A DNA stretch of 39,741 nucleotides from a bacterium (GCA_021791545.1 JAJYWL010000013.1:1-39741); one strand, 5' to 3'. Shown: positions 5,502 to 13,634, counted from the first letter of the stretch. Translations and numbers: made by a program. The notes: generated by a model not told the origin, from the letters alone.

Positions 5502-7058
5502 TTAGTACTGAGTGACCTTAAGCGAAGCAACTCCATACTGAAGAGTGTAGACTCTAAGCCATAAACCTTGGGAAAAATTGACGGTTTTTTCTATTTTATA
5601 GTGCTCATCAAGATAATTCTTTATTTTATTCTCATATCCCTGGTTATACGAATACACAACAAAAAGACGTGCATACTGTTTTTTATAATTATCAACTTGA
5701 GTTATAAGATCGGAAGAGTTAAATGGAGGAATTCCTCCTTCCTGCAATCTGTCCCACTGAGGTATCGTATCCAAAGTCGTAATTCCATTGTATGAATATT
5801 CAAGTGGATAAATGGTAAAAGGTGCCGTAACCGCAATCACATCGTTTGCCGAAGCATTTTTGTAAAGATATTCTGCCACACCCTTATAGTTTTCCTTAAC
5901 AGGAGTATAGGACGTGAAGTCCTGTTCAAAAGAAAAAACGAGCATGAGAACGATAACTGCTGCAATAAGATAAGAAGAAAGCTTTTTTGCATAATTAACC
6001 AATATCCAGGCAATAAGAAAGAAAAAGGTTGGCGTTATAAAAATAAGGTATCTCGAAAGAAAGACGGGTTTAATAAAAGATCCTAGATAAATGATAAAAA
6101 CGGGAATAAATGTAGCCATAAGAAAATATCTAACGGTAAAAAGAGGCTGCGTCTTTCTATGTGTAAATACGAAAAAGAATATTATTCCTAGAAGCGGCCA
6201 CATAGAAACAATAATCGTCTGTATCGCAGCAGTAGGAAAACCAAACATCACATTAACGAATAATTCAAATATGTTATATGTAGTCGGTTTTGGAATAAGT
6301 GGCTGGGTATTTGAGGCACTCCCATTTAAAAATACATAAAGTAACCAAGGTAAAAGCAAAATTGATGCACTTATTAGGATTTTAAAAAATTTTTTTACAA
6401 ATATTTTATTTTTTTCATCAGGATTATTTAAAAACTCACTTACACTAATTTTTCCACTTACTAAATTAACTAGTCCTTTATAAAGCACAAATAAAGCTTG
6501 GGTTCCCAAAAGAAGGATGAAAAAATAATGAGTATAAAGGCCAAAGGCTGCTGTAATAAAAAAACCCAATCCCCCCTTGTCTCCCCTAGTCCGGAACATT
6601 CTTAAAAAATAAAGACTGTTGGCTGCTGTTGCAAAAGCAAGCATACTATACATTCTTGCTTCACTCGAATACCAAAGAATGAAAGGAGATAAAGAAAACA
6701 GAATAACAGTGAGAAAAGCTACTCTCGAATTACTGGATTCTTTTGACATTTGAAAAAGAAAAGGAATAGTAAAAACAAAAAATATTACAGAAAGTATTCT
6801 TGCAACAGATATATCGGTTCCAAATATCAAAAGCCAATAATGAAGAAGTAAATTATATAAAGGAGGGTGTACATCTTGAGCTGTTAATTGAAGCATTGCC
6901 CCCATAGGTTTAGTTACTATCCAGATAGATTGTGCTTCATCAAGACCTATCGATTGATGCAAAAGAAAATAAGTATTAATTCCTATAACGCTGCCTAAAA
7001 ACACAAAGACAACAAAATATTTTAAAAATGTTGTGAGATAAAAGGTATAACTACGCAT
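5502..7058 (-). CDS. GT-C fold glycosyltransferase (GT39/ArnT-like)
   Basis: The 518-residue membrane protein has about eleven helices. The first helix is followed by an acidic LDEAQ loop and then DVHPPLYN, the signature of the PMT/ArnT-like GT-C enzymes, which take sugar from a polyprenyl-phosphate donor on the outer face of the membrane. The C-terminal 130 residues are a soluble extracytoplasmic domain. Its ATG overlaps the stop of the BcsA-like gene by eight bases, so the two are translationally coupled. It is the last gene of the exopolysaccharide operon. A role in decorating the polymer or a lipid carrier is plausible, and the donor is unknown. Confidence 0.85.
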   Translation of the reverse strand: MRSYTFYLTTFLKYFVVFVFLGSVIGINTYFLLHQSIGLDEAQSIWIVTKPMGAMLQLTAQDVHPPLYNLLLHYWLLIFGTDISVARILSVIFFVFTIPFLFQMSKESSNSRVAFLTVILFSLSPFILWYSSEARMYSMLAFATAANSLYFLRMFRTRGDKGGLGFFITAAFGLYTHYFFILLLGTQALFVLYKGLVNLVSGKISVSEFLNNPDEKNKIFVKKFFKILISASILLLPWLLYVFLNGSASNTQPLIPKPTTYNIFELFVNVMFGFPTAAIQTIIVSMWPLLGIIFFFVFTHRKTQPLFTVRYFLMATFIPVFIIYLGSFIKPVFLSRYLIFITPTFFFLIAWILVNYAKKLSSYLIAAVIVLMLVFSFEQDFTSYTPVKENYKGVAEYLYKNASANDVIAVTAPFTIYPLEYSYNGITTLDTIPQWDRLQEGGIPPFNSSDLITQVDNYKKQYARLFVVYSYNQGYENKIKNYLDEHYKIEKTVNFSQGLWLRVYTLQYGVASLKVTQY

Positions 7059-8559
7059 AACTCAATTCCTTCCTTGAGGTCTTTTCCGGTTTTAAATTCG
7101 GATTAACAACTGCCTTTAGGAAAGGAAGGAATAAAATTATGTTAAAAAGTCCCCAGGCAACATTAGATATTATTGATGCATCAACCCCCCTTGTCACAAC
7201 TGCAAATACCGTAGAGACAGACATAAGAAAAATGTAGAAAAAATGAGGATATGCCAAAAAGAGAAAATTTCCACTTTTTTGTTTTTTAGGAGTAACTACA
7301 AATGCCATTTTTTGATTTAAAAATGCAGATTTAATTGCCTTTAGCTGTAAGGTCCATGCACTTTGCGAAAAAGAAATAGCTCTAAAAGTAAGTCTTCCCG
7401 ACGCGACAGCAAAAAGAGTTGAAAGGTTAAGAAACATAAAGGGAAGAAAAAACAAAGCAAAAGAAGTTGTAGATGTTGAAACAACTTGCCTTCCTGTTAA
7501 AAGAAAAAGTATGGGCATTGCCATATCTATAAGAAGAACTAGACCGTTAAAATAATAAAGAGCTGATGATAAATATTGGAATCTTTGAGCCCAAGTAAGT
7601 CCTCTTTTGAAAATAGGGTTCTCCCAGAAAAGTACCTCAAGTGAACCTCTTGCCCATCTTAATTGCTGTTTCCAATAAGACTGCATATCCTCAGGAGCAA
7701 GACCTTCTGCAAGAACTTCTCTTGTGTATCTTGATATCCATCCATTTTGATGAATTTTTAATGAAGTCAAAAAATCTTCGGCAATATTATCGGTCCTCAT
7801 TCCCCCGGCATCTACCAAAGCCTTTCTTCTTATTACTACGTTAGTCCCGCACATGAAAGCTGAATTTACCCTGTCTTTTCCTTCCATTATCGGGCCAAAA
7901 AAGAATTCCTGCTGCTCCCAAGCTCCTTTGGTAATTTCATTTACTAAATTATTTTTATAATACTGTGGGGTCTGTACAAACCCGATTCTCTTATCTGAAA
8001 AATAAGGTATAGTTTTTTCCAAAAAATCCTCATGAGGAGACATATCTGCATCAAAAATTACTATGATATCTCTATGAGTCTGGAGCAATGCGTTATTAAT
8101 ATTTCCCGCCTTTGCTCCCCCGCCGATTCTTCTCGTTATACATGAAACTCCGTAACTATGCGCAAGCCTCACGATTTCATGCCAGTTATCTTTCTTACCA
8201 ACAAGACCATCATTTAATACATAGACTTTAAAATTGTCGTACCTCATATTCAGAGTTGCCTTTAATGTTTCTTCGACAATGTCAGTTGGTTCACCAGCAA
8301 CAGTAATAAAAACATCTACTGTGGGATGATAACTTTCATCGAAAAGAGTTTCTTTTTGTTTTGCCGGCCACATCGTAAACCAAAAAAGAGCAGACATAAG
8401 TACATGATAAAATTCTCCAAAAAGAAGAAGTATATAAAGAGCAGGTGTTGCGGCATGATCCGGCATCAACCACCAGGAAAAATAAATAAGAGCAGCTGCC
8501 GTATTAATTAATAAAATCTGTTTATCTACTTTTTTTGCAAAAATTAATTTCTTTTCCAT
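7051..8559 (-). CDS. bcsA: Cellulose synthase catalytic subunit-like GT2 (BcsA family)
   Basis: The 502-residue membrane GT2 has all the processive synthase marks: D117 in VLNDG, DAD at 170-172, ED at 261-262 and QQLRW at 298-302. The gating-loop motif FVVTPK is at 420-425. Two helices come before the catalytic domain and about five after it. Length stops soon after the last helices, so the c-di-GMP-binding PilZ domain of classical BcsA is absent. The enzyme should polymerise a UDP-sugar and export the chain. I chose the ATG at 8559, two bases after the GH8 stop, rather than a start 20 codons upstream inside that gene. The polymer may not be cellulose. Confidence 0.88.
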   Translation of the reverse strand: MEKKLIFAKKVDKQILLINTAAALIYFSWWLMPDHAATPALYILLLFGEFYHVLMSALFWFTMWPAKQKETLFDESYHPTVDVFITVAGEPTDIVEETLKATLNMRYDNFKVYVLNDGLVGKKDNWHEIVRLAHSYGVSCITRRIGGGAKAGNINNALLQTHRDIIVIFDADMSPHEDFLEKTIPYFSDKRIGFVQTPQYYKNNLVNEITKGAWEQQEFFFGPIMEGKDRVNSAFMCGTNVVIRRKALVDAGGMRTDNIAEDFLTSLKIHQNGWISRYTREVLAEGLAPEDMQSYWKQQLRWARGSLEVLFWENPIFKRGLTWAQRFQYLSSALYYFNGLVLLIDMAMPILFLLTGRQVVSTSTTSFALFFLPFMFLNLSTLFAVASGRLTFRAISFSQSAWTLQLKAIKSAFLNQKMAFVVTPKKQKSGNFLFLAYPHFFYIFLMSVSTVFAVVTRGVDASIISNVAWGLFNIILFLPFLKAVVNPNLKPEKTSRKELSYA

Positions 8560-8561
8560 AT

Positions 8562-9743
8562 TTATTTTGATAAATCTACTAAATAATGATTGTATAAACC
8601 TGCACCAAACCATAACCAATTCTGGTCATAATAGGGCAATCTTTTATCAAAATCATTTGCCGCGCTGGAATAAAGACTAAGAATCTTTTGTTCATAAATC
8701 TTTTTAGCAACCGGTTCATCTGTAACAAAAAAATACCCCAGGGCGGTTCCATACATTGACGGTTTTTCTGCAGGTATCAAAACTTGCCCGTCATATGTAT
8801 AAGAACCACTGATTTTATGTATCGCCTGCCAGGTATATTTAAGTTTGTTATAGTTATTGTTCAAATAATCATAAGCTCTTTTATCTTTATTCCATTCATA
8901 GTCCAAAGTGATTCTCCAAGGAACTCTCATAGCGTCAAAAGAATAATTTGAATCCAAATTTCCCTCGACGGGGGTGACAATATTCCCCGATGAATCCAAT
9001 GCCAACCAATCAGGCGGAAGACCTATCCCGGTTTTTCCTCCCAAGTTTGCCTGCCCAGATTTGTTTAGAAGATCATAAGCAGGTCCTACTAAACTATTCC
9101 AATCATGACGCGGATCTACTTTTGCAAATATTCTCCAGGCGTAAGGTGCAAAATATGATGGATTTATAATTACCTGCCCATTTGTCTTAGCCCAATTACC
9201 ACCGGTGACATACATTTTTCCACTGACAGTTGCCGTATCTAAAGTCCAAAGAGAACTAAGAATATTTTTTGCTTGAGACATGTAATTGGCGTCATTCCAT
9301 CTTTTTGAGGCAAAAATTAGCGCAAGGGCTATATCCGTATCGGCATCGCTTGCCGAATTTATTCCCCCATTTTCAATGAACCCATATCCGCTCCCCGTCT
9401 TGCCCCACTTCCATCCGAAAAGATTATCGTTAGGTCTTTTCATGTTTTTCTCGGTCCAACTCCAAAGTGAATCGAACTCACTCTTATCGTCTATCCAAAC
9501 ACTTCGAAGCATACCGTAACTTTGTCCTTCGGAGGTGGTTATGTTATTTGCCGAAAAATCAATTACTCGTCCATTTTGAATGAATTGATTCTTATACTTT
9601 TCCCACGAGGAAGTTAACATATCCTTACTGGAAAAAGTTCTGTTTATTCTGCTATATTCACTGTTTTTATATAAAACGATAACAACAATTATTAATCCAA
9701 GGAAGATAAGTAAATAACCAATATACTTTTTATATTTAGTCAT
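8562..9743 (-). CDS. Glycoside hydrolase family 8 (BcsZ-like endoglucanase)
   Basis: This 393-residue GH8 protein has a single N-terminal membrane anchor (residues about 8-25), so the catalytic domain should be outside the cytoplasm. The family acid is E72 in TSEGQSYGM, and the conserved aspartates lie in SDADTDIALA (133-140). GH8 includes endo-beta-1,4-glucanases, chitosanases and xylanases; bacterial cellulose operons normally carry one (BcsZ) that trims the polymer. It lies between a small membrane protein gene three bases upstream and the BcsA-like gene two bases downstream, which fits that role. The exact substrate is inferred from context. Confidence 0.9.
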   Translation of the reverse strand: MTKYKKYIGYLLIFLGLIIVVIVLYKNSEYSRINRTFSSKDMLTSSWEKYKNQFIQNGRVIDFSANNITTSEGQSYGMLRSVWIDDKSEFDSLWSWTEKNMKRPNDNLFGWKWGKTGSGYGFIENGGINSASDADTDIALALIFASKRWNDANYMSQAKNILSSLWTLDTATVSGKMYVTGGNWAKTNGQVIINPSYFAPYAWRIFAKVDPRHDWNSLVGPAYDLLNKSGQANLGGKTGIGLPPDWLALDSSGNIVTPVEGNLDSNYSFDAMRVPWRITLDYEWNKDKRAYDYLNNNYNKLKYTWQAIHKISGSYTYDGQVLIPAEKPSMYGTALGYFFVTDEPVAKKIYEQKILSLYSSAANDFDKRLPYYDQNWLWFGAGLYNHYLVDLSK

Positions 9744-9746
9744 CTT

Positions 9747-10151
9747 TTATTTCCAATCTAATACATCTTTTCCGGGAGAAAGTAAGATATTTATATTCTT
9801 TATCTTTCTCAAAAAGTTCAGTACTGCTCTTACGGGTAAAAACTCAAGAAGATAATAACCTAAAATAAAAAGAATAAATGAGAAACCGAGAAGTGTAAAA
9901 GTAAGCCACTGAGGGAAAGAATTATCTGTATAAAAATCGGCGTTTTGATCTGACGTAGCATTGATATTGTTTGGAGTTACAGCAAGTAAAGTATTATTAG
10001 TATCAAAATTCATTGGATCAGAAGTCTCGTAGTTTGCAAAAATTATTGTAGGTTCAGACTTTTGAGATACGGGAGAGATTAAAGAATTAAATATTCCAAA
10101 AGAAATTGTAAGTAGAACAAAAAATGTAAATAAAAATGCTTTCTTTATCAT
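9747..10151 (-). CDS. Small two-helix membrane protein of the exopolysaccharide operon
   Basis: The 134-residue protein has an N-terminal signal-like helix (about 4-25), a 55-residue outside region rich in Asn, Asp and Thr, and a second helix (about 85-105) with a short basic cytoplasmic tail. I do not recognise a family. It is the first gene of the operon with GH8, BcsA-like and GT-C genes, three bases before the GH8 start. Its position and topology would suit an accessory subunit of the synthase. It is much too short to be BcsB. A promoter lies at 10157-10184. Confidence 0.7.
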   Translation of the reverse strand: MIKKAFLFTFFVLLTISFGIFNSLISPVSQKSEPTIIFANYETSDPMNFDTNNTLLAVTPNNINATSDQNADFYTDNSFPQWLTFTLLGFSFILFILGYYLLEFLPVRAVLNFLRKIKNINILLSPGKDVLDWK

Positions 10152-10237: not shown

Positions 10238-10591
10238 CTAAAGATATTTTTCTACTACTTTTTCAAGGTCATCTATATCAAAAGGCTTGAGAAGACAATC
10301 ACTTGCTTTTATATCCTGACTTATTCTCTTTGTATTACTACTTGCCGAGATAATTACAATGGGAATATTTCTTGTAATAGGATCCTTGCGAAGCTCAACC
10401 GCAATCTCTTGTCCTGTAAGATGCGGCATCCAAAGATCGAGAAGAATTAGAGAAGGTTTTACTTTTTTTATTTTTTCCACAACGTCTTCGCTACTTCCAA
10501 GAGTTTCTACTTTATATCCCTTTTCTTCCAAAACTATTTTTATTACTTCTACGATTCCATCATCGTCATCGCAAATTAAAACTTTTTTCAT
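10238..10591 (-). CDS. Single-domain response regulator (CheY-like)
   Basis: The 117-residue receiver domain has the acidic pocket (CDDDD, residues 7-11), the phospho-acceptor D52 in LLDLWMP, the conserved Ser in IISAS (about 82) and Lys in LLKPF (about 103). There is no output domain. It must therefore act by protein contact or as part of a phosphorelay. It starts three bases after the stop of the histidine kinase and is surely its partner. The next gene downstream is the exopolysaccharide operon on the same strand, 87 bases away, with its own promoter. Confidence 0.93.
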   Translation of the reverse strand: MKKVLICDDDDGIVEVIKIVLEEKGYKVETLGSSEDVVEKIKKVKPSLILLDLWMPHLTGQEIAVELRKDPITRNIPIVIISASSNTKRISQDIKASDCLLKPFDIDDLEKVVEKYL

Positions 10592-10594
10592 TTT

Positions 10595-12772
10595 TTATTT
10601 CCTTAATGGCAATATTACAGTAAAAATAGATCCTTTTCCATCAGGATTATTACCAACTTCTATTGTTCCATTGTATCTCTTTACTATTTCACTCGATATA
10701 AAAAGGCCAATTCCCATTCCCGAAAATTTCTGAGAAGCATTTTCCGAACGATAGAATCTTTCAAAAATTCTTTCTCTCTGAGTCTCGTTAACTCCTATTC
10801 CATAATCTATTATAGAAATTTTTATTTTATTATTTTCTTTCTTTGTATCTACTATTACCCTATCTGACTCAGGAGAATATTTTATAGCATTATTCAAAAG
10901 ATTTGACAAAACTTGCTCGAATCTAAATTTGTCTCCGATAAATTTATAATCCACTCTTCCCCTTCTTATAATTTTATGTTTTTTCTCTCCTGCCTGGACA
11001 CTTTCTATTATTTCGTCCACCATTTTATCAAAATCAAATCTCAATGAAGCAAATTTTGCTCTACTTAATTGTATTCTTGAAACCTCCAACAGATCACCTA
11101 CTAATCTATTCAATTTATTTATGGATACCTCCATATTTTCCATGATCAAATTCATTCTTGGATTTTGGAATTTCGAAACTTCTCTTTTTAAAATTTGTTC
11201 ATAACCCTTAATTGTAGTTAGTGGTGTTTTGAGCTCATGACTTGCTACTGCAACAAACTCATCCTTTTGTCTTTCAAGTTCTAGTTGTTTTGAAATATCC
11301 CTTGTTATCACAGATATTTCCACAATATCTCCAAACTTATTAAATACTGGAGAGATTGTCAGTGAAACATCAATAATTTTCCCTTTCTTTGTAACTCTTT
11401 TTGTCTGAAAATTCTCAAGAGCCTCACCACTTGAAAGAGTTTTCATTATGTAATCCAACTCTTTTATCCTACTTTTGGGGAAAATCTTTATAATAGGCTT
11501 TCCTAACATCTCCTCTTCCCTAAATCCGTAAAGCTTTTCTGCTCCCCTGTTCCAGCTAGTTACTATCGCTCTTAAATCTTTACTTATGATAGGATCATCT
11601 GTTGACTCTACTATTGATGCCAGTCTCGAAGAATAACTTTCAGATTTTTTATGTTCGGTAAGATCAAGAACAAATGCTATTGCAGTCTGTTTTCTTTTAT
11701 CTAGTACTGAAGCGCCTATAAGTACGGGGATTTTATCACCATTTTTCTTAAGATATTCTTTCTCATAAGGGTTGACCATTCCTTTAACCTTAATTTCCTC
11801 CAAAGCATTTCTTGTAGTATTTTTAAACTCTTCAGGTGTTATATCAAAAAAAGTTAACTTTCTTTTTTCAAACTCTTTCCTTGAATACCTAAGCATTTTT
11901 AGAAACACATCATTTGCTTCTAATATAATTCCCCTTCTTAAATCAGCAACATAGACACCGATAACGCTTGAGGAAGTAAGCCTTTTGAGTTTTTCTTCAT
12001 CTTCTCTTAACTTTTCATAAACCTTCCTTCTTTCTGTAATATCTCTTAAAACTATTATCCTTAATTCATTTTTCTTATAACCGCTCTTTAGATCGGAAAT
12101 TAAATAATCTATTGGAATCCCTTCTTTACTTTTTTTGTTTAGAATCATGTTACTAGAAAAATCGTTTGAAACTTGTTTCCTATATAGATTATTTATATTA
12201 ATTTTTTTATTATTTTTACTGTCTAGAAATTCGACAGCAGTTCTAATGTTTTTTCCAATTGCTTCTTTTAATTCCAGTCCTGAAAGATTTTCTGCAGTAG
12301 AGTTCATATATGAAATTATTCCTTTTCTATCGGTCACTATAATTCCGTCATCAATATTTCCCATAACATTCATAAACCAGTCTCTTTGTTCCGTTGAGGA
12401 AATTGAAGATTCTTTTTGACTTACGATTATCCAAGAAAAGAAAATCCCCTGAAGAAAAAATATTGACAACTGAAAAGCGTGATTTCTTACAAAGAAAATT
12501 TCATGATACGGAGGGAAAAAAAAATACTCAAGAGTAAAAATTCCAAGAATTGTTGCAAAAACACCGGAGAACATATTACCCAAAAGAGCACATATTATTA
12601 TTACAAAATATATTAGAAGATAATTATCTCCCATTCCAGAAAGATTTAATCTATATCTTAGAAATACTGTAAGACCTGTAAGGATTATTGGGAAAATAAA
12701 AGTTGCAGAAAAATGTCCAATCTTCGTCTTCTCGAATCTCTTGTATATATCGACAGCATTTTTAAGGCTCAT
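10595..12772 (-). CDS. PAS-domain sensor histidine kinase
   Basis: The 725-residue kinase starts with a DUF4118-like/KdpD-like block of about four helices (residues 20-118), with almost no external loop. Three PAS domains follow (about 128-250, 258-380 and 382-500). The HisKA domain has VASHELKTPLTT with phospho-acceptor H512. The ATPase domain has NLLNNAIKYSP (N box), DYGIGV (G1) and GMGIGLF (G2). Membrane and PAS parts suggest it senses a redox or small-molecule cue near the membrane. I chose the ATG at 12772 because TATAAT ends nine bases before it. A GTG at 12817 would lie upstream of that box. It is co-transcribed with the response regulator. Confidence 0.92.
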   Translation of the reverse strand: MSLKNAVDIYKRFEKTKIGHFSATFIFPIILTGLTVFLRYRLNLSGMGDNYLLIYFVIIICALLGNMFSGVFATILGIFTLEYFFFPPYHEIFFVRNHAFQLSIFFLQGIFFSWIIVSQKESSISSTEQRDWFMNVMGNIDDGIIVTDRKGIISYMNSTAENLSGLELKEAIGKNIRTAVEFLDSKNNKKININNLYRKQVSNDFSSNMILNKKSKEGIPIDYLISDLKSGYKKNELRIIVLRDITERRKVYEKLREDEEKLKRLTSSSVIGVYVADLRRGIILEANDVFLKMLRYSRKEFEKRKLTFFDITPEEFKNTTRNALEEIKVKGMVNPYEKEYLKKNGDKIPVLIGASVLDKRKQTAIAFVLDLTEHKKSESYSSRLASIVESTDDPIISKDLRAIVTSWNRGAEKLYGFREEEMLGKPIIKIFPKSRIKELDYIMKTLSSGEALENFQTKRVTKKGKIIDVSLTISPVFNKFGDIVEISVITRDISKQLELERQKDEFVAVASHELKTPLTTIKGYEQILKREVSKFQNPRMNLIMENMEVSINKLNRLVGDLLEVSRIQLSRAKFASLRFDFDKMVDEIIESVQAGEKKHKIIRRGRVDYKFIGDKFRFEQVLSNLLNNAIKYSPESDRVIVDTKKENNKIKISIIDYGIGVNETQRERIFERFYRSENASQKFSGMGIGLFISSEIVKRYNGTIEVGNNPDGKGSIFTVILPLRK

Positions 12773-12781
12773 AACTCTATG

Positions 12782-12787
12782 ATTATA
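12782..12787 (-). promoter_or_regulatory. -10 element TATAAT for the kinase operon
   Basis: On the minus strand TATAAT ends nine bases before the ATG at 12772, so the leader would be two or three bases. The upstream AAAAGGAGAG looks like a Shine-Dalgarno sequence but lies too far from that ATG and, by this reading, is not transcribed. Confidence 0.5.
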
Positions 12788-12845
12788 CTCTCCTTTTGAG
12801 AGAGGCAATAATACCACTAATAGTAGGAATTGTAAAAAGAGGAAG

Positions 12846-13634
12846 TTAGTTAGATGATTCTGTTAATAAATCTTTAAGTCCTGTAGTCACATTTTTTGCT
12901 GCTTTTGTGTAATTACAAAAATCACAATCCGATGAAGGATCAGGAACAACATCTCTTGATAGACACTCATAAGCATCCCTTATTGCTTTTTCAACCCATG
13001 TATCATCTCCCTTATACGGAATTATCTTTATATCAAACTCTAATTTAGCATCAAATTTTTCGTTCTCCGTATTTCCATTACAATAAACAAAATAGCCTGT
13101 ATCACTTACTTCAAAATTATTTTTTCTGAAAAGCCATTGATATATTTCCATCTGTCTTTTGTAACCTATTTGCCATTCGGCATCAAGGTTAACTTCTTCG
13201 TCTTTTGATGTAGCCTTATAATCTACGATAATAAGCTGGCCTTTGGGATTTACCCATAAATCATCTATCCCTCCTGTTATAAAGAAATTTGTTGGTTTAT
13301 GTAGATAAGTAATACCTCCCCTTAATGCGTCTCTCCACTCGTTAAGTCTGGGATGTTTAAAAGGAATAGCATCTATTCCAAATTTCTTCATTAAGGGATG
13401 CTGTTCCTGTTTTTCTCTTAAGATATCAAACTCTTTTTTCAAAAGCTTATCAACAGCACTATTTAATGAGAAAGGGAATCCCGGTGGCCTATCTATTCCT
13501 AAGCGCCTGTCTAGATAAAAACATCTGGGACAATTTAAAAAAAGGTCAAGTCTTGCTCTACTTAACCTGTAGGGTGCACCCGATAAAGGGTTAAAGAGAT
13601 TTCCTTTTCTTTGAGGATTGTAGTACTTTGACAT
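12846..13634 (-). CDS. PD-(D/E)XK nuclease-like protein with two Cys pairs
   Basis: The 262-residue protein has a RecB/Cas4-type PD-(D/E)XK core: GGIDDLW (D124) followed by IIVDYKAT (D138, K140), with a helix ending in EIYQWLF (about 163-169), where such enzymes carry a QxxxY motif. A CPRC at 35-38 near the N-terminus and a CDFC at 237-240 near the C-terminus could bind a 4Fe-4S cluster or zinc, as in Cas4 and AddB. No cas gene or CRISPR array is in the window, so a CRISPR adaptation role is not supported. DNA repair or processing is more likely. TATAAT ends nine bases before the ATG. Confidence 0.82.
   Translation of the reverse strand: MSKYYNPQRKGNLFNPLSGAPYRLSRARLDLFLNCPRCFYLDRRLGIDRPPGFPFSLNSAVDKLLKKEFDILREKQEQHPLMKKFGIDAIPFKHPRLNEWRDALRGGITYLHKPTNFFITGGIDDLWVNPKGQLIIVDYKATSKDEEVNLDAEWQIGYKRQMEIYQWLFRKNNFEVSDTGYFVYCNGNTENEKFDAKLEFDIKIIPYKGDDTWVEKAIRDAYECLSRDVVPDPSSDCDFCNYTKAAKNVTTGLKDLLTESSN

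Follow-up and report, generated by a model that had tools for sequence, protein, structure and literature searches.

How could a cellulose-type polymer be made and exported by a bacterium whose genome encodes neither BcsB nor PilZ? This question is raised by four closely packed genes at positions 5502-10151 of the 39,741-nucleotide contig JAJYWL010000013.1:1-39741 (GCA_021791545.1), the whole of which we refer to as the window. An initial annotation described these genes as a compact exopolysaccharide operon in what might be a cell of the Candidate Phyla Radiation (CPR), and its account of their place, families and spacing has been confirmed. The genes run head to tail on the minus strand, from 10151 to 5502:

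9747-10151, minus strand: small protein of 134 aa, with an N-terminal signal or transmembrane (TM) helix at residues 7-25 and a C-terminal TM helix at residues 87-105.
8562-9743, minus strand: glycoside hydrolase family 8 (GH8) endoglucanase of 393 aa (PF01270, 7.6e-51), with an N-terminal TM anchor at residues 7-25.
7051-8559, minus strand: cellulose-synthase-type processive family 2 glycosyltransferase (GT2) of 502 aa (PF13641, 1.9e-24), with 2+4 TM helices.
5502-7058, minus strand: PMT_2-type GT-C glycosyltransferase of 518 aa (PF13231, 6.2e-11).

The junctions comprise 3 bases between the small protein and GH8, 2 bases between GH8 and GT2 (the GH8 stop codon, AT, then the ATG of the GT2) and an 8-base overlap between GT2 and GT-C. 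We take the GT2 to begin at the ATG at 8559; the start of the mechanically called open reading frame (ORF) is a TTG at 8619. We consider it reasonably probable that this module encodes a beta-1,4-glucan synthase free of BcsB and PilZ, together with a tethered glucanase for editing and a dedicated GT-C that draws on lipid-linked sugar to decorate the polymer or tether it.

The source genome comprises 775,354 bases in 17 contigs and is 96% complete and 0.1% contaminated. Among named relatives, the operon occurs in records of Candidatus Levyibacteriota, Daviesbacteria and Dojkabacteria. Because these are CPR lineages, with the Levyibacteriota belonging to the Microgenomates group of Patescibacteria, the source organism is a CPR cell, as had been guessed, very small and probably host-dependent.

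The arrangement recurs well beyond this contig. A profile built from three synthases and run over 374 genomes of the class finds the synthase at 724 bits or above in 13 genomes, the next score being 320, and in all 13 the order small protein-GH8-GT2-GT-C is retained between differing flanking genes. A Dojkabacteria contig (L032) adds GH8-GT2-GT-C, and 380 genomes sampled across the phylum yielded 13 more synthases (563-702 bits). Of these 13, 12 have GH8 before and GT-C after; at the other locus (L109) the GT-C is present and the contig ends where GH8 would lie. The survey of CPR genomes that the initial annotation had proposed thus finds the GH8-GT2-GT-C order at 25 further loci across the class, L032 and other classes, which is every locus with a long enough contig, and this recurrence means that the gene order is not due to chance. 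The 27 synthases form a single clade (Shimodaira-Hasegawa-like approximate likelihood ratio test, SH-aLRT, 99) separate from other CPR GT2s. About 3.5% of class genomes have the module. Genome G309 carries it and its congener G031 does not, and the Dojkabacteria synthase nests inside the class clade, a scattered distribution that suggests loss or transfer. No earlier description of a CPR cellulose-synthase operon was found in the searchable literature, which takes in few subscription papers.

The GT2 has the hallmarks of a processive synthase. The D, DxD, ED and QQLRW motifs and the FVVTPK gating motif reported previously are located at D118, D171-A-D, D263, 299 and 421. All 27 module synthases keep D, DxD, D and QxxRW, as well as the gating motif in the form F-x-[VI]-T-x-K, in which either Val or Ile fills the V position. 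The best NCBIfam match is TIGR03030 CelA (4.4e-89), at a score of 299-300 bits that lies below the curated 699-bit cut-off, so that the BcsA equivalog level is not reached. CelA is nevertheless the top curated match for all 14 synthases tested, some 60 E-value orders above PgaC, and the chitin-type NodC is a weak family match far below CelA. PDB sequence and profile searches return bacterial cellulose synthases first and then plant CesA and CslF6, and a fold search ranks BcsA (2e-23) above CesA (2.5e-14) and hyaluronan synthases (2.6e-10). A hyaluronan- or chitin-type identity, which by the initial annotation would have spoken against its reading, is rejected on these profile, PDB and fold rankings; judged by homology, the enzyme most closely resembles BcsA and CesA. 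A GalU-like UDP-glucose pyrophosphorylase is present in the source genome (317 bits versus a curated cut-off of 327).

Both the structure model and hydropathy place two membrane helices N-terminal and four C-terminal in the synthase, and its alignment to Cereibacter BcsA (chain 4hg6_A) does not begin before residue 59 of that chain. The protein ends 17 residues after its last predicted helix, and the corresponding tails are no longer than 75 residues in all 27 synthases, too short to hold a PilZ domain. Neither PilZ (PF07238) nor BcsB (PF03170) has a match anywhere in the 96%-complete genome, and the same searches find both in control genomes that include E. coli and Bacillus subtilis. The description of an exopolysaccharide-synthase operon operating without BcsB or a cyclic di-GMP (c-di-GMP) domain therefore holds for the synthase and for the genome as a whole. 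In BcsA, an extra helix at the N terminus coils with BcsB; RiGT2 of Romboutsia ilealis, also encoded without a BcsB gene, lacks that helix (PMC10374906). The module synthases share this trait. Since the source genome encodes one GGDEF protein, c-di-GMP may still signal through some other receptor.

The GH8 carries one N-terminal membrane anchor in 13/13 class members. Residues E72 (general-acid position) and D133 are kept in 25/25 relatives and D270 (base position) in 23/25; these roles follow the established assignments in C. thermocellum CelA and E. coli BcsZ, transferred by alignment. Among solved structures the enzyme comes closest to glucanases and cellulases of family GH8, and its score of 142 bits does not reach the 299-bit BcsZ equivalog cut-off. 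A gene of the GH5 cellulase family adjoins six class loci (L023, L058, L059, L062, L064 and L066), and a PDB comparison, run for the L059 protein, gave a 522-bit match to Acidothermus endocellulase E1. This adjacency favours a beta-1,4-glucan product. A second GH8 is encoded on another contig of the same genome (C4; L029:5290-7386); it is a secreted 698-aa protein with N-terminal repeats and has no adjoining synthase.

The strongest new fact to emerge, and one that the initial annotation missed, is that the GT-C is an obligate partner of the synthase. A GT-C profile finds this protein at 690 bits or above in the same 13 of 374 class genomes as the synthase, with the next genome at 183. Although the profile was trained on those 13 members, it gives scores of 329-539 to GT-Cs of other classes that were not in its training set, and it would therefore have revealed an overlooked orthologue. 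The window protein scores 43.2 bits with PF13231 (curated cut-off 26.1), and an acidic pair in its first extracytoplasmic loop (D40-E41) is conserved in more than 90% of members. GT-C enzymes of the PMT_2 kind take polyprenyl-phosphate sugars and act on the outer face of the membrane. Candidate donor synthases (polyprenyl-phosphate sugar transferases of the ArnC/DPM type) occur in the source genome, below curated cut-offs. Modifications known for Bcs products are phosphoethanolamine or acetyl groups (PMC7710045), and no sugar-decorating GT-C partner of any cellulose synthase turned up in the searchable literature, with its sparse coverage of subscription papers. At two further loci, L072:38-3134 and L073:7777-10871, a distant GT2 is directly followed by a protein of ~490 aa (a PMT_2 GT-C in L073) with no GH8, hinting at further GT2/GT-C pairing.

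The small protein directly precedes GH8 in 13/13 class loci. Class members have a signal-like N-terminal helix, a variable and disordered outer stretch that is often Pro/Thr/Ser-rich, and an [FY]Y motif ~10 residues before the C-terminal helix. In the window protein the outer segment is of low complexity, not conserved and not Pro/Thr-rich, and the juxtamembrane [FY]Y motif lies at Y74; the L064 protein is short and has no clear second helix. No Pfam family is matched. In a leave-one-out profile test against a background of 827 ORFs, 12/12 class members were recognised (E 1e-9 to 4e-4) above all unrelated ORFs (best E 0.004-0.02), and since every member tested was recognised, we regard the small protein, by its sequence profile, as a true conserved family within the class. 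It is not a universal part of the module. Proteins of similar layout occur at five non-class loci (L097, L098, L099, L100 and L105) and are not significantly recognised by the profile (best E 0.035), and at 7 of the 12 non-class loci no candidate lies within ~420 bases. The profile does not match E. coli BcsB, and we therefore reject the idea that the protein is a distant BcsB. An accessory role is plausible by analogy with clostridial CcsB, a non-homologous two-helix protein proposed to take the place of BcsB (PMC7710045).

These observations are consistent with a compact cellulose-synthase kit of a monoderm type. The GT2 would polymerise UDP-glucose at the cytoplasmic face, and the chain, resembling a beta-1,4-glucan, would leave through the enzyme's own six-helix channel; BcsB, an outer-membrane pore and a PilZ switch would have no part in this. 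GH8, held on the outer face by its one-helix tether, would trim or release the emerging chain in a BcsZ-like manner. The GT-C, also acting at the outer face, would use a polyprenyl-phosphate-linked sugar to decorate the glucan or to link it with the cell surface. The small protein of Microgenomates-type genomes, with its disordered outer segment and its conserved [FY]Y-plus-helix end, may serve as a dedicated accessory at the channel exit. Of this scheme, the genes and their order, the co-distribution, the intact motifs and the missing BcsB and PilZ are observed, whereas the linkage of the product, the sugar and acceptor of the GT-C, the part played by the small protein and the purpose of the polymer are inferred.

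On this reading the module works like a cellulose synthase system, yet it is set apart from members of the Bcs family. It shares with BcsA-BcsB-BcsZ(-BcsC) systems the GT2 catalytic motifs, the FxVTxK gating loop, the four C-terminal helices and a GH8 of the BcsZ kind. In contrast to those systems it has no BcsB, PilZ or extra N-terminal helices, stays under the CelA and BcsZ cut-offs, anchors its GH8 in the membrane and adds an obligate GT-C. We do not count it as a Bcs member because PilZ, BcsB and the curated BcsA score all fail. The clostridial Ccs operon ccsZABHI is similar in being of Gram-positive type, in lacking a BcsB homologue, and in encoding a GH5 enzyme and an accessory protein that has two helices and an outer segment, but differs in having PilZ on CcsA, a CBM11-like domain in CcsB and acetylation genes (PMC7710045). 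In the CPR module GH8 and GT-C are present instead, and no folded outer domain is recognised in the small protein; no Pfam domain is found between its two helices, where CcsB has its CBM11-like domain. RiGT2 is likewise a BcsA-like synthase without BcsB and without the first helix of BcsA, but it needs its PilZ-like domain, and the sections of its report open to us give no GH8 or GT-C partner (PMC10374906). Cyanobacterial type IV/Xcs systems combine a BcsA-like synthase with an endoglucanase and no BcsB, and differ from the module in using a HlyD-like partner and TolC (PMC12430437). No HlyD-like partner is encoded at 5502-10151, and at the other loci the synthase neighbours are GH8 and GT-C. 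Plant CesA and CslF6 also work without BcsB or PilZ, and CesA fold matches rank next after BcsA, although identity to CesA in the fold alignment is only ~17%. CesA carries extra RING/PCR/CSR regions and forms trimers, unlike the module synthase. The GT-C shares Pfam PMT_2 and a DE motif in the first outer loop with ArnT, Pmt and mycobacterial Rv1635c-type enzymes, but its sequence matched no solved structure.

A separate synthase module is also found in CPR genomes. It combines a BcsA-like GT2, a HlyD-like protein and GH81, a beta-1,3-glucanase family, at L025:7080-11291, L069:6025-10327 and L111:6215-10587, with a similar layout in L067, L110 and L112. This module is probably a beta-1,3-glucan machine, and lies closer than the GH8 module to the cyanobacterial HlyD-type arrangement.

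Several points weigh against a cellulose-like product and the roles assigned to the module proteins. As the synthase lies far under the curated CelA cut-off, the identity given to its product is putative. A mixed-linkage glucan product is indistinguishable by sequence, as stated for RiGT2 (PMC10374906). The GH5 neighbours could instead mean that the cells also use outside cellulose, and no GH5 scores above cut-off in the genome of the window itself. The GH8 family also holds enzymes that act on other glycans. The sugar and the acceptor proposed for the GT-C are putative; the sequence profile of this enzyme matched no PDB chain, and a low-confidence model of it (pLDDT 54) gives OST and Pmt as top fold matches without statistical significance. 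The synthase model is likewise of low confidence (pLDDT 61), and for every member of the module support comes from sequence and models.

Among the alternatives, a product that is a (1,3;1,4)-mixed-linkage or other non-cellulose beta-glucan, with GH8 and GH5 cutting its 1,4 stretches, seems unlikely to us. Such a glucan is made by RiGT2, a BcsB-independent, BcsA-like Gram-positive synthase (PMC10374906), and BgsA and curdlan-type synthases are likewise BcsA-like. The module synthases, however, fall outside the BgsA/curdlan-like clade, in a tree whose deep branching is weakly resolved, and the likely beta-1,3 machine is the separate CPR GT2-HlyD-GH81 module. We hold it to be about equally improbable that the GT-C glycosylates a surface protein rather than the glucan, for example the S/T/P-rich or N/D/T-rich small protein of its own operon. 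Protein O-mannosyltransferases belong to PMT_2, and many of the small proteins have a Pro/Ser/Thr-rich outer segment, but the GT-C is present at all loci, including the 7 at which no small protein was found, and the small protein of the window is not Pro/Thr-rich.

The proposal that the 134-residue protein may replace BcsB is weakened, even though the protein belongs to a conserved class family. A stronger version, in which it is a minimal functional substitute for the BcsB membrane anchor and is required for synthase activity, is somewhat less doubtful than the two preceding alternatives but still on the unlikely side. Its position immediately upstream in 13/13 class loci, its conserved juxtamembrane Tyr and helix, and the precedent of CcsB as a non-homologous two-helix stand-in (PMC7710045) argue in favour. 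Replacement of BcsB is nevertheless unproven because 7 of 12 non-class loci yielded no such protein, the synthase, with two N-terminal helices only, lacks those that would meet BcsB, and the small protein bears no resemblance to BcsB; moreover, plant CesA and RiGT2 function without BcsB (PMC10374906). It is very improbable that the operon yields no polymer and represents a remnant, degenerate or mis-assembled, of a pathway for cell-wall glycan. Its sparse distribution would fit, but the catalytic motifs are intact in 27/27 synthases, and the reading frames are intact and in the same order in many families.

Returning to the reading that we favour, a BcsB- and PilZ-free beta-1,4-glucan synthase with editing glucanase and GT-C, a more ambitious form can be framed. 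In this form the module would be a CPR-wide machine in which the obligate GT-C adds lipid-derived sugar branches or surface coupling to emerging cellulose, the new small-protein family provides a minimal exit subunit, and the polymer serves epibiont-host contact. We regard this fuller picture as speculative. Transposon sequencing of the Saccharibacterium Southlakia epibionticum identified a three-gene exopolysaccharide locus, SEML1_0081-0083, as essential or growth-limiting and important for growth on the host (PMC10633639); this locus could be a GH8-GT2-GT-C module or a GH81 module.

Other features stand near the operon or resemble parts of it. Upstream, on the same strand, a histidine kinase (DUF4118, three PAS domains) and a lone receiver-domain response regulator occupy 10238-12817 (minus strand) and end 86 bases before the operon. 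The pair is not conserved at other loci and is thus rejected as part of the module; it possibly provides local control of the operon. Beyond it, 12846-13634 (minus strand) encodes a protein of 262 aa that scores 33 bits with Cas4, under the cut-off of 65; it is likely a PD-(D/E)XK-type nuclease. Rfam and tRNA scans of the whole window gave no matches. On contig C10 of the same genome (L021:6794-9360) there is a second, distant synthase-like GT2 of 735 aa that ends in a long Pro/Thr tail. The gene before it encodes a two-helix protein of 120 aa that belongs to no family; the partner of the GT2 orthologue (L026:5919-8538) scores weakly with the small-protein profile (E 0.008). In a family relative, L022:1-6000 has four genes in one run, which encode a GT2 cut by the contig end, a protein of 360 aa judged by eye to be GH26-like, a GH8, and a protein of 843 aa whose end looks, again by eye, like a NodB deacetylase.

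In CPR cells the genome is small and biosynthetic capacity is very limited. That such cells, in scattered lineages, keep a conserved polymer operon suggests that it provides a useful surface polymer. If our reading is correct, the module would rank with the smallest bacterial kits described for cellulose-type secretion, and its lipid-sugar GT-C would be an apparently unreported partner for the well-studied cellulose machine.

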